Below the pieces are notes generated by a model. It was given only the letters and a program-made list of their open reading frames with translations, searched no databases and had not been told where the DNA came from. A DNA stretch of 64,000 nt from Paramecium tetraurelia (taxonomy: Eukaryota; Ciliophora; Oligohymenophorea; Peniculida; Parameciidae): NCBI RefSeq assembly GCF_000165425.1, contig NW_001799001.1:124001-188000 (forward strand), written 5' to 3'. Shown here piece by piece: positions 49,219-56,629 of the stretch. The position numbers were made by a program, and so were the translations under genes. The stretch's first letter is position 1; each line of letters begins with the position of its first letter.

Positions 49219-52200
49219 TCATTAATTTATAATGACATAAAGCAGTTCAACTCTTGACAATTGATTGTTGTGTTTCGCTATTTCAAGCTCCTACAAAAAG
49301 TTATTTCTTGTCTTATTGCACAGTTCCTTAATCATGATCTTATATAGATCTTAGAACTAGAGATCTTTCTCCTTGGTTCATAGACATAAATTAATACTTC
49401 AATGCATAACCGCAATAATTGTTGGAGGTATTTCTAGTAGTTCTCAATCACATGTGCATCTCCCAAATAAGTTTCCTAAACAGGTATAAATTGATTGATG
49501 TATGACAAAATGGAAAAAAGATGCTTTCTAGTTTCTTAATTCTATTCCCCTCCATTTTGATCGATTGCATCAAAGCAAAAGAGCTGTAAGTTCGGCAATA
49601 AAAACTTCTGATTTTTACTATCCAATAGATGCTATTAAAATATCATAAATCAAGTCTTACCTTTGATGAGGGGTATGGCAAAAACAAATTACAAAATTCA
49701 CTTACGCAAACAACAATCATATTGTACTGCTTTCTGTAAAATTTCTAATAACAACTACATAATGCTATGACAGTCCTAGTGTAATAGTCAAGGGACAGCT
49801 AGTCTTTGCTCATAGCTTTTCCGATATCTCTCTTCTTGCCTAAATATCCAGATATTGTCTTGAAGGTCACCAGCAAATTATCAAGCAATTTTTAAGTGAA
49901 TTACTTTTATTATAGAGAATTTAACCATTGTCCTGCTATTGCACTCAACTTTAGAATAATCTAAATATATAATTAGGAGTGCTGTTATTCAAATGATTAC
50001 AACAAAAGCTATGTAAGTTTGAGAATAAAGTCACATGGTTCAGGTAATGAATTTGGGAGTATAAAATCATAAAGTAAATCAGTTAATTGATATGCTTAAG
50101 TAGACCCATGATGTAATTAATGAATAAGTTCTGAAATCACATTCTTCCATCCTGAATCTCCAAATAAAAAGTCATTCTTCAAATTATCAACTTTCAATAA
50201 TCTTACTCTCTCACTGTACTACAGTTTTTATGTTTATTAAATTTATTGATTCAACAATATGGCATTGAAATTTTATATATAGTTGATTACATTATCTAGT
50301 AAGTTTAATTAATATTAATATTTCTCGTTGAAGGCCATCACTTCATCTTGAGTGCCCATCTTTTCAATTGACTTTTTAACTGTATTGAGTAACTAATGAT
50401 ATGAATACTTTAAAATACATCCTAAATTTCTAGATGATTGATAGTTGAAATGCTCTCTATCATGCTATTTTCGCATAAAAGATCTACTATATTGCTCAAC
50501 AATTCCATTTTAGTTCCAATTCCCTCGAAAGTTGCTTCAATAGCTCCTTGACAAAGCCAACTTAGAGCTTAAGTAGCACTTCTCATATATTGTTCATCCC
50601 TTATATATTTACCCCTCATACTTGAGAAGATAATAAATGAATAAGAAGTATAATCGCAGAATCTTCCCAACAATTAATAAGTTTTTTATAACTAAACATT
50701 AGTAATAGATAATTTACATTTAATTGAACATTCTTCTCTATTTTAGTTTAACCTGGTTTAATGGCCATGATTGTATTGGGTATAAAGTTATCCAAAAACT
50801 AGGTCATGTAATCCTCACTAAATAAAACCCCTAAAGTCATGAGATGGCTAGCTCTTAATCTATTTTCTTCATTGTTATCCACTATCTCTTTATAAATAGC
50901 TGGCCACATTTTTCTCACTTAATTTTTAATGAATCCTCTCATTCCCAATTTAGGTCTTTCCTTAAAAGGAGGAGGCAGTGGCAATTATGATAATTTTCCA
51001 TCTAATATCCAAGCAGGTTCTATTCCTAATTGTCTCACATTTTTGATATCCTTCTCCTTTTCAATCTCCCACTCTTTACCAACATCTTCAATTATCTATA
51101 AGGCTGCCTCTTGAATTGATGGATCAATGTCGAAGAGTCCAGATAAAAGATAAGGAACAAGTCTTGGGTGATGATCCCACCTATCTGCCAATCCTCTCAA
51201 CCAAAACCCAATTTCCTTGATGAAGGCTTACCTTACTTATTATTTTGGATCAATGATTAATGTAGCCTAATTGTATATTAACAATCATCTTTACAAAATA
51301 ATTGATATGATGCATAGGTTCAAAGAAGGCTTTTATCGGAACTGAGTTGGGATCTTTAAAGCCTGTCAATATTTCAAAGACAAATGCATTATTTTTCCAT
51401 ACTCCGCATAAGAGAACAGCTGATAGAGCCTCCAAAGCTGCTATCCTAACTGGACTCTTCTTATTCACGAGTGGATGGAGAATTGCTCTTCCCATCTTCT
51501 CTGTAAAATGCAAGAGCATTTAATGGTTGACCTTGCAAAATTTACTCAAACTCTTGCAAGCTTCCTTTTGGACTTCTCCAAAGGGATCCATTAAAAATGC
51601 TCGATGAATATCTACTATGTCATCAATATATTCATGTAAGTTATCACTATCATTTTTACACATAATCGAATATAAGAATTATATCAACAGTAATCGAATC
51701 TTGAGATAGAATCACAGATTTACCTCTTCTGATTCTTCAATAAATTTCATTAGTCTTGTGGGCAGTTATGAGGGAGGTGGTCTCATTACCTCAGGTAGAT
51801 GACTGATTCCTTCTAAGTCCTAGCAATTGCTTCTTTCTATCAAGACTGAAAAAACATAACTCAATATGGGTTCATTATCCTCTGAATTTGTTATCAATCT
51901 AGCCGATATGACTTAATTGATACTCGATCATTGATTTTATGGACATTTCTCGAACCTTTTCATTGGTATCTGAGAAAGCCTTCAAAAGTACTTTGCCGTA
52001 TTTTAAAAGTATTTGTTATGACAATGCTAATGGTATTGATTTTTCGTTTACAATCTGATTGAGCAATATTTGGATCTGTAACTTTTTAATATATCTAAGT
52101 GATTGCTGTTTTCCTCAAAGTTGGATTTTATTCATGTATGGCATTCGTATTCTATTTGAAAAAGGATTCCAATTCCTAAATTTGTATATATATTCATACT

Positions 52201-52229: not shown

Positions 52230-52419
52230 TTAATTAAAAAATATATATAATAAATTGATTATCCATTTTTTAGAAATAATAATAAGAAAGTAAGGATTTA
52301 TTGATATATACTGATTATTAACTATCTTCTAGATTTAAGAGATGTTGGTGAAAATCCTATCTATTATGTAATTATAAAAGTCGTGTTAAGCCTGTATTTC
52401 TCAGTTTAATTATAATAAT

Positions 52420-53368
52420 ATGTTAAACAAAATAACTCAAGTTTATCGACTTTCGAATCTTAAGTTGCATTATCCAAAAGGATTCGCTAAGATTTTTAAG
52501 ATACCTCATCATGCCACTACAAGTGACATCGTTTAATTAATCAAACAAGAGGAGCAAAGTTTCTAAAGTGTTAAAATTACAATGGGGGACAAAGATATGA
52601 CTGATCAATAATTGCCTTTCGTTGACTTAGTATTGCACAACACTCCTTCAATTAATATTGACGATGTGAATTTCTCATTTGAATTAGATTTAAATGGTTG
52701 CGCACCATATTACATGAATTCTGAATTAGAAACAGCTTTTGGACAACTTGAGATTCCATATTTCGATGCCTTGGTGATTGCTAGATTCCATGAATTGATG
52801 GTTTAGCAACTGAATCCAAATAAGCAATCCCACAGTCCGGTTGAAATTGAAAGTGCAATTCAAAAGGCTTTGGCAAAATTTGCAGAAGAAAATGCCACTA
52901 GTTCTCAATTCTGGTAATTGTAGTCGACAGTGTTGCAGAACTTGGATTAGGTCATTGTGTACTACGAGAAAATAGTGGCTGAAGTAACCGATGAAGCAAC
53001 TAAAGTATTTACAACATCTCAATATTTTATAGCAAGGTCACAAATTGTTGAAATAACTCATAGTGTTCGCTCTGATTTAGTATTTCTTTCTGCTTTATTT
53101 GACTTATGGAATTTACGATTGGGGAGTGTCAGAACCAATATCATATTTGATGGCCTAGGTGATGGAAACAGTTGCCTTGTTCTACTTCATCAAGAAGGGA
53201 AGGGCGTTTAAGCAGACTCATTTATTTAAAAACAAATTCGATAAGACGTTCTATGAACTCATCAATAAGAAAACCAATTCTACGTATTTCATGAAAGACC
53301 TTGAATTTGCAAAACTAAAGGCTGACCTCATTCAAGCTAAGGTAGTGTATGGAACAACATCAGTTTGA
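52420..53368 (+). CDS. Mitochondrial calcium uniporter family protein (MCU-like)
   Basis: The spliced product is 306 aa with one 28-nt intron at 53005-53032. The N-terminal domain is MCU-like (HHATTSDIVQLIKQEEQ, SVKITMGDKDMTDQQLPFVD, LVLHNTPSINIDD). A helical region follows (QKALAKFAEENATSSQFWQL), then TM1 (VFALIQYFFLLYLTYGI), a short pore loop, TM2 (SYLMAQVMETVALFYFI) and the matrix coiled coil (KADLIQAKVVYG). The pore loop reads YDWGVSEPISY, against WDxxEPxxY in canonical MCU: Trp, Glu and Pro are kept but the filter Asp is Gly. MCU forms the inner-membrane Ca2+ channel; this one may be altered, regulatory, or paired with another subunit. Confidence 0.88.
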
Positions 53369-53453
53369 AAGGGCACAACAGGATTGTCATTTTACAAATA
53401 TAACAATAAATATAAATATAATTATTGGGAATTCATTCCATTGATAGAACATT

Positions 53454-54867
53454 ATGTAAATTATTCTTCTCCAATCACTGTTCCTCTTTGCATTTGCTAC
53501 TAATTATAATGAATTCAACCACACCTTAACACTCAAAGATATCAAGAGAAATATCTCATTCTAATCGTAATACATTTTTAACCTTTAGATAGTAATACTT
53601 GGGCATGGAAGTACTTCCGAATGAACCTGAGAACATCTAACAAATATAACCCTTAACTTATTCGGAGACGAGAGCAATCTTTTATTTCAAGCACGCCATC
53701 AATGGTTCGTATATTGGTTTGAGGAATAAGGATTCGACAATTTATGCTCTACAGAAAAATTGCACATTGGTATTCATTTCTTTAGAGAACGACTCTCGTT
53801 CTCAAGAGTTTAAACCGAATTGTCTCTAATTATTAATTGACAAAGATCAGAGTCATCTTGCCATCCTTTACCCAGACTCTATAATTCTGTACAACACCGA
53901 ATCAGATTAGGTTGAAACTGTGGAGTACAACTATACTGATGCAGTTACTGACATCAGACTCACTTAGAAGTACATCCTGATATCTAAGGGGTTGCAAGGC
54001 ATGGATATGTTGAGTTTTCAGGGAGAGCTTATCTTAAATAATTTTATGGCCAATAAAAATATTTTGCAAGCCTCCATTCATGCCAACAGATTGGTATTAC
54101 TTTTTGATGGAGGTTTGCTCATTTTTAACTTTAAGTTAAGTCCTCGATTAATTAATGAAATTTAAATAGATGAATGTGTAAGGTTTGAACATAACAATAA
54201 ACTTTTCATTATTTAAACTAAAACTAAGATTTTAGAATATTTCTGGAAAAATCTTCTAGTCAATCAAGAAATTATTACTAATTCTGAGGTCACTAGCATT
54301 TCACTCCATTAGGAGTACCTATAATTTATATCCAATGGACGTCTTTATTAGAAGTTGGTTGGTATTATTAAGGACGATTTCAATCTCAGTAAAATTAATG
54401 TGACGGCATATGAAACTAAATCTACTCGCATTGTAGGGTATTAAGAGAAGAATTAGTTGATTTTGTAGAATGATTAATAATTTGAGATAGTATTTTGGCA
54501 TTTCCAACCAGCCTTTTTAATTTTTAAACCTAAAACTACAGGGTTGTTGACCTGTCTAGTCGATCTGTATTAGAAGGACACCAGAAGTTTTAATTCAACT
54601 GTGGAAATCGTTCACTATAAAATCTACATTGAGGTTATAGAGGAAGAAATTACAACGTTCGAAATTTTAATCATAATGGTAGTTATATTATCTTTAATAA
54701 TACTATTTTATATTATCAGGAGGATTGTGTTGATCTAAATTTTGAAGAAAAAAACATAAAAAGAGAAAAAAGATGACCCAGAAAACGAAAGTAAAACAGA
54801 TTCTGAATTTAAAGTGGTTTCTGAAAGTTAGCCTTAAGAGGAAGTTTAAGCTTTGAATACCAAATGA
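53454..54867 (+). CDS. Type I membrane protein with propeller-like ectodomain
   Basis: The spliced product is 463 aa with a 22-nt intron at 53567-53588. Signal peptide MQIILLQSLFLFAFATNY, then beta-strand-rich repeats that look like propeller blades (HLAILYPDSIILYNTESD, LVLLFDGGLLIFNF, YLQFISNGRLYQKLVG). A single membrane helix (FEILIIMVVILSLIILFYI) is followed by a basic then acidic tail (KKKTQKEKKDDPENESKTD). It is shorter than the two other type I proteins in the window but has the same plan. No family was named. It lies 85 bp after the MCU-like gene, same strand. Confidence 0.75.
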
Positions 54868-54979: not shown

Positions 54980-56629
54980 ATGTCATACTAAGAGAAAAAG
55001 GATGTAACGGATTATTTAGTTAATGTGCTGCGATGGACGAGAGATCAAGTCGAAGATTTTGGGCCTTAGTGTTAATGGAATAAGGAAAAAATGATACAAA
55101 CTTATAACAACTTTTATGTCCCTAATATTCAATAAGGAAGACCTTAGGCCCAAAAATTATATGCAGTAAATTTACATCAATCATTGTTTAGCAAGATATT
55201 CAGTAGGAAATGCTCAATCAAAATGATATCGATGATTAGGAATAATTGAAAATTGGACTAATGGCTTCTTAATTTTAATAAGACAATACACCTATCAGAG
55301 ACAGACTAAAACATGATTACTATCCTGTAGGCATATAGAACTTGGGGAACACCTGCTATTTTAATTGTCTATTATAGATAATTTTTTATAATCCTAATTT
55401 GGTTGAATCGATTTTGTAATACAAACAATAAGAGAATAACCAACCTGGAGATACTCTTCAGCAGCTCAGCCAGAATTTTATGACCCAACTTCAGCATGTA
55501 TTTGCTTAATAAATGCTTTGGAATTAGAAGTATTTGAAGCCGTCGGAATTCTATGATGCTGTGATGAAGTTTGAGATGCAAAAACAAAATTACAAGATAG
55601 TTCAAAATAACGAGTTTAGAGATTTAAGCGAATACTTTAATTGCTTTATGGAATTAATCGATTAAACTCTCAGCAGGAATTTCAATAAGCTCAATGATCA
55701 AATCAACTTCTTCTATAATGAAGACTTGGAAAAGCAATATATTATAAAGCAAGACAAGTAGCCTTAATTGTAATGGCATATAGGCATATAGAATAAGCAA
55801 ATCTATAATTTTTTGTATAAAGAAATCATTGAAAACAAAAATTTTATAAAATAGCTGCCCCACAACCTTATTTTCACTATAGGGAGGACAGATCATTTAA
55901 ATAAAAAAATAGAGGAGGAGTTTCATTTTCCTTAGGAATTGCATTTAGATTTCGTTTTACGCGATTAATAGGCTACTGAACATGTTTAAAAATATATCAA
56001 TTAATAACTCTAAACCTATAAGGATTATCAATAATGTAAACTAATCAACTATATTTATAGTAAAAAAGCAAGTAGATGCCTTTGAGAAAGTTGTCAAGCA
56101 TTATGAATCACTCCCCACTTTTGATACGTTTATTCTAAATAGTTTGAAGTTCGAGCACAAACAGAAGATTTAAGAAATGAAACAATACTTTCCCTTGAAT
56201 TACCACCTCTTGAATTAGGAGCTACAAAAGAATTCTAAGCATCTCTATCAATTGGCTCAAATAGTTGCTCACACAGGTAGTATTAATTAGGGTCATTACT
56301 ATTTGTATTAATACAATTTTCATATGAAGAAATGGTTTAAATACAATGACACAGTCGTTGTAATCTAATAAGAATAAGAAGTAATCAGTGATTCCATTAA
56401 ATAAGGAAATATTCTGATTTACATAAATTAGGAACAAAAAAAGAAAGTGGAACAATATTAAAAATAACTATATGATATTGAGACCATTAAAAAAGCAAGG
56501 GGTGTATAATTGCTCTAATATGATAATCACCCATATGAATACTTGTCCAAGATTCCATTAAAAATACGCAAGGAAGTAATTACAAGTAACGAAACCTTTC
56601 AAAATCGATATAACGAATAACATAAATGA
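54980..56629 (+). CDS. USP-family ubiquitin-specific protease
   Basis: The spliced product is 532 aa with introns at 55166-55191 (26 nt) and 56036-56060 (25 nt). The Cys box reads VGIQNLGNTCYFNCLLQIIF with the catalytic Cys. The His box reads GSINQGHYYLYQYN with the catalytic His, followed by KKWFKYNDTVV, which supplies the acidic third residue. The domain spans roughly residues 95-450. Before it are an N-terminal TRDQVEDF region and a Gln-rich linker. It cleaves ubiquitin from substrates. The Cys-box context resembles the USP25/28 group, but assignment within the USPs is uncertain. Confidence 0.9.

Follow-up and report, generated by a model that had tools for sequence, protein, structure and literature searches.

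What does a subunit of the mitochondrial Ca2+ uniporter (MCU) contribute to its channel once the outer aspartate of the pore is gone? The question is raised by one gene in the window, the 64,000-nucleotide stretch of Paramecium tetraurelia DNA that was analysed here, whose predicted product has Gly226 where canonical MCU has its outer filter Asp (WD). A sequence-only reading had placed the pore motif WGVSEP at 53120..53137, and the motif is encoded exactly there, in exon 2 of what we call the WG gene.

Gene structure and family assignment

The WG gene, the window's MCU-family gene, lies on the + strand, and its coding sequence (52420-53004 joined to 53033-53368) predicts a protein of 306 amino acids under the ciliate code (table 6). 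The frame reads through TAA and TAG codons, both of which stand for Gln under this table; this and the very short intron are traits that fit Paramecium. An in-frame ATG upstream, at 52342, offers an alternative start. The features are the following:

52420..53004, + strand: exon 1, 195 amino acids (open reading frame and table 6 translation), with a basic N-terminal stretch, a possible beta-rich N-terminal region and the beginning of the PF04678 region
53005..53032, + strand: predicted intron, 28 nt, GTA...TAG, GTATTTACAACATCTCAATATTTTATAG
53033..53368, + strand: exon 2, 111 amino acids and TGA, with TM1, pore motif, TM2 and C-terminal region
53045..53113, + strand: TM1 (approximate), hydrophobic by eye, placed by the human MCU alignment and a helix in a low-confidence model
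53117..53119, + strand: Asp224 codon GAT, opposite human Ser259, which precedes the filter Asp by two residues
53120..53137, + strand: pore motif W-G-V-S-E-P, residues 225-230, codons TGG GGA GTG TCA GAA CCA
53123..53125, + strand: Gly226 codon GGA, at the outer-ring Asp position (human D261)
53138..53197, + strand: TM2 (approximate), from helix 36-55 of the exon 2 model (low confidence) and the human MCU alignment

The predicted 28-nt intron joins both frames without a stop, and a single PF04678 match spans both exons. The basic N-terminal stretch is a possible matrix-targeting signal. A six-frame scan of the window found the W...EP pattern three times, and in the whole-genome PF04678 search the WG gene was the sole marked place within the window.

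Judged by profile, the gene product is a member of the MCU family: it matches Pfam PF04678 with 47.7 bits (cut-off 30.8, E 2.4e-12) over residues 136-275. Each of the nine PDB sequences that phmmer reported at E <= 10 is named calcium uniporter; the weakest stands at E 0.23, and the other eight score 0.0066 or lower. A profile built from the six paralogues described below matched 13 PDB sequences at E <= 0.01, again all named as calcium uniporters (best E 2.2e-12). The two membrane helices that had been claimed for the protein agree with the human MCU alignment, in which the motif opens the second, and with a single-sequence AlphaFold2 model of exon 2 that predicts helices at 2-30 and 36-55 at low confidence (pLDDT 58.1). 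The claimed MCU N-terminal domain was not confirmed: the Pfam match starts only at residue 136, the corresponding model of exon 1 is poor (pLDDT 52.5) with a beta-alpha-beta-beta order, and a Foldseek search with it gave 262 matches at E <= 10 and none at E <= 0.001.

Transcribed divergently from the WG gene is a neighbour at 49643-52172 (minus strand), with a match to dynein axonemal assembly factor 5 (PF25757, PF24573) in its piece 50619-51284 and none at E <= 0.01 in the piece 49646-50476. Downstream, on the + strand, lie a 500-amino-acid open frame (53365-54867), in which inspection by eye shows a hydrophobic stretch close to the C-terminus and for which no Pfam match above cut-off and no significant PDB match was found, and a ubiquitin carboxyl-terminal hydrolase (55033-56085; PF00443, 65 bits). 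A check for a duplicated block found no second copy of either flanking gene (49643-52172 and 53365-54867) in the genome, and genome protein searches with the pore region and exon 1 found no duplicate of the WG gene itself.

As a single-copy, diverged gene that has also lost the Met of DVME, the WG gene might be a decaying paralogue or pseudogene. We regard this as quite improbable, given a frame of 306 codons with one clean short intron and the retention of the domain and of W, E, P and the Tyr three places past Pro. GC content by codon position (0.41/0.26/0.38, versus 0.20 in the 246 bases upstream) speaks mildly against decay as well.

Register of the pore

In the five best of the nine PDB alignments, the pore region aligns to the uniporters without a gap, YDWGVSEPISYL over YSWDIMEPVTYF, pairing YDWGVSEPISY with YSWDIMEPVTY. 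We take the aligned PDB uniporters to be human MCU, with the numbering D261, S259 and E264. This numbering agrees with PMC6347451, where residue 259 is Ser. The gap-free alignment therefore puts Gly226 at D261, E229 at E264 and Asp224 at S259, so that the claimed change of Asp to Gly with Trp, Glu and Pro kept is in the right register. E229 and P230, the inner Glu and the Pro that follows it, are invariant in all six aligned paralogues, the WG protein included; the Tyr three places past Pro is kept in the WG pore, and the Met of DVME is replaced by Ser.

The reading would have been mistaken if the upstream Asp of YDWG occupied the filter position, which the sequence does not bear out: a register with Asp224 as the filter Asp was rejected because the W...EP spacing is identical in the human alignment and in six of six paralogues. 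The side chain of Asp224 might still conceivably make up for the lost filter Asp. That the glycine comes from an Asp codon misread in sequencing or assembly is scarcely credible, since GGA is two substitutions away from GAT and GAC, that is, from any Asp codon, which led us to reject a one-base error, and the Met of DVME is Ser in the same motif.

Six paralogues with three kinds of pore motif

A PF04678 profile search of the genome contigs (231 contigs, 69 Mb) gave six matches, four above the cut-off and two (L005, 25.8 bits; L006, 25.0 bits) below it. At the protein level, in a scan covering all but L001 and L005, the WG protein (47.7 bits), L002 (60.2), a piece of L003 (59.3) and L006 (33.4) all scored above 30.8. 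A WDxxEP motif, the hallmark of the second MCU gene that the sequence-only reading had proposed to look for, was found in three of the genes (L001, L002 and L003, each WDVMEP), two others read WNVCEP (L005 and L006) and the WG gene reads WGVSEP. Subunits lacking the outer Asp thus occur together with canonical MCU in one organism (three WD, two WN and one WG gene of six). In both kinds that lack it the Met of DVME is replaced too, by Cys (WN) or Ser (WG).

Protein searches with the pore regions of the WG protein, L003, L002 and L006 and with exon 1 yielded no further convincing MCU members, although such searches score the best candidates only and more diverged members could escape them. Two weak matches were rejected as MCU genes: L009 (E 0.05), whose match holds a TGA and whose sole W...EP lies on the strand opposite that match, and L010 (E 0.1), which has no W...EP in six frames. 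Outside this genome, a strict WD-x-MEP-x-TY pattern had no match in prokaryote genomes, the L002 pore region gave 29 pattern matches there, none of them confirmed, and viral contigs gave one pattern match, likewise not confirmed. EMRE (PF10161) had no match in the genome, the control genomes giving none either, and a MICU1 query, run without a positive control, found nothing in the genome at E <= 0.001.

The L001/L002 pair has a dS of 0.67 and a dN/dS of 0.025 (313 codons). The WN genes form a near-identical WNVCEP pair (L005:1501-1803 on contig C200 and L006:1501-1803 on contig C14; 97.6% identical, dS 0.14, 253 codons) with two additional residues in the loop preceding the motif. Their dN/dS of 0.073 shows that purifying selection acts in this genome on an MCU-family protein without the outer Asp, although the pair's sequence makes it a weak member of the family. 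It is linked to the family by Pfam, the L006 protein lying barely above the cut-off (33.4 versus 30.8), and by a match to L001 at E 6.9e-5. Its pore region had no significant PDB match (best E 0.21); the 11 matches comprised four MCU, six complex I subunit and one cytochrome bo3 sequence.

The WG gene shares 18-22% pore-region identity with its paralogues. A tree of the six pore regions separates the WD trio from WG and WN (0.74), whereas the full-length tree groups the WG gene with L001/L002 (0.82). With the two trees in conflict, the Asp may have been lost once or twice. As far as sequence tells, the genes lacking it are two diverged lineages, WG and WN.

Published mutants and the probable role of the WG subunit

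In human MCU, where D261 was exchanged for every other residue, Ca2+ transport was reported with Asp, Glu and Ala alone (PMC6347451); Gly is covered there by the phrase 'all other 18 amino-acids' and not by name. The same paper describes the D ring as the MICU1 docking and Ru360 site and S259 as helping to form the MICU1/Ru360 surface: D261A, which transports 3.8-fold more slowly, no longer binds MICU1 and is no longer blocked by Ru360, D261Q also fails to bind MICU1 but can still oligomerise, and S259A binds MICU1 less well and is blocked less strongly by Ru360 (PMC6347451). These replacements were made in a pore with Ser at position 259, where the WG pore has Asp. Work on Tribolium MCU-EMRE describes the Glu ring as the selectivity filter and finds that changing D to A leaves selectivity almost unchanged (PMC9757755). 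Since only D, E or A at human position 261 supports transport, a tetramer of WG subunits alone should conduct poorly or, as we expect, not at all. The suggestion that the subunit is active only when mixed with a canonical paralogue is accordingly better founded than before, WDVMEP paralogues being present in the genome. Altered ion choice, also suggested, is unlikely: selectivity depends on the Glu ring, and in the Tribolium channel the change of D to A barely affects it (PMC9757755); mixed pores would stay selective.

On balance, we therefore think it probable that the WG protein is an auxiliary subunit of a mitochondrial Ca2+ uniporter that it forms together with WDVMEP subunits, a hetero-oligomer with an incomplete outer ring. 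The WG subunit would give its inner Glu (E229) to the selectivity ring and bring Gly instead of the outer Asp, leaving the outer carboxylate ring of mixed pores incomplete. Mixed WG/WD pores would be expected to capture and pass less Ca2+ at unchanged Ca2+ selectivity, and a MICU1-like gatekeeper and Ru360 would bind them less strongly. We infer mitochondrial location, hetero-assembly and all of these functional effects as the most likely ones; assembly with the paralogues is not assured at so low a pore identity.

The closest published likeness is found in trypanosomatids, whose MCUc and MCUd are reported to carry WNxxEP in almost all species examined, to bind MCU in a hetero-oligomer and to be required for Ca2+ uptake, which falls on RNAi and rises on overexpression (PMC6143741). 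All four T. cruzi subunits are termed Ca2+-conducting (PMC7730205), and the trypanosomatid paralogues are termed necessary for transport (PMC7078472). Like the WG protein, MCUc and MCUd are PF04678 members that occur alongside canonical MCU, with W, E and P retained and the outer Asp missing (PMC6143741). They differ in having Asn instead of Gly and are described as trypanosomatid-only, and their function has been demonstrated, whereas that of the WG protein is read from its sequence. The WN pair has the same residue as MCUc and MCUd, a likeness for which we claim no orthology. The trypanosomatid precedent and the WN pair together make an auxiliary subunit more likely than a dominant negative. 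The trypanosomatid members also mean that the outer Asp does not define the whole MCU family, and the statement in PMC9757755 that both pore acids are perfectly conserved among identified MCU proteins is already contradicted by the trypanosomatid WN subunits.

A subunit of low conductance, or a dominant negative, could instead mix with canonical subunits and damp uptake, resembling vertebrate MCUb in effect as the sequence-only reading had suggested. The transport of human MCU with only D, E or A at 261 (PMC6347451) is consistent with damping, as is MCUb itself, an MCU paralogue that hetero-oligomerises with canonical subunits and inhibits (PMC10107711), a mixing that the WG protein may share. 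MCUb, however, keeps the DIME Asp (Asp246) where the WG protein has Gly (PMC10107711), and it is thus no model for the change of Asp to Gly; the inhibition by MCUb would have to come from other differences. With MCUc and MCUd, which lack the Asp, supporting uptake (PMC6143741), we hold damping to be possible and yet unlikely, though the sequence of the WG subunit is compatible with either a promoting or a damping effect on uptake. Fungal MCUP resembles the WG protein as an MCU-family paralogue described as having no shown uniporter activity by itself, but it retains DXXE (PMC7423614).

Distinctly unlikely, in our view, is a WG channel that conducts alone, its outer carboxylate displaced two residues outward to Asp224, ungated by MICU1 and insensitive to Ru360. 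Canonical human MCU shares with the WG protein the helical region, two helices, W..xEP, the inner-ring Glu and the Tyr three residues past Pro; in the WG protein Gly replaces the outer Asp, Ser the Met and Asp the residue S259. This last acid would sit at a position of the MICU1/Ru360 surface, and pores with Ala in place of the filter Asp do conduct, in Tribolium MCU-EMRE with selectivity close to normal (PMC6347451, PMC9757755). Yet the register is fixed by W and EP and does not align Asp224 to D261, Gly at 261 is among the failing replacements in human MCU (PMC6347451), and trypanosomatid MCU paralogues are reported to carry D or G at the position of S259 (PMC6143741), so the acid is not special to the WG pore.

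Implications for the uniporter family

Ciliate MCU paralogues as such are already known, and the MCU duplications of ciliates and kinetoplastids are described as independent (PMC7423614), which suggests that subunits without the outer Asp may have arisen in both lineages. Among open-licence PMC papers found by full-text search and judged by their titles and abstract openings, we found none on a ciliate MCU lacking it. Extended further, and as a speculation that we consider rather doubtful, the uniporter of one ciliate might combine three types of pore subunit that differ stepwise at the outer ring (Asp, Asn and Gly), the Gly kind with its acid displaced two residues outward; their mixing would tune the outer-ring charge, and hence gatekeeper block and Ru360 sensitivity, at a constant Glu filter. 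Normal, WN and WG paralogues side by side in one genome would amount to a set of natural mutants of the D ring, the site of MICU1 docking and Ru360 binding.
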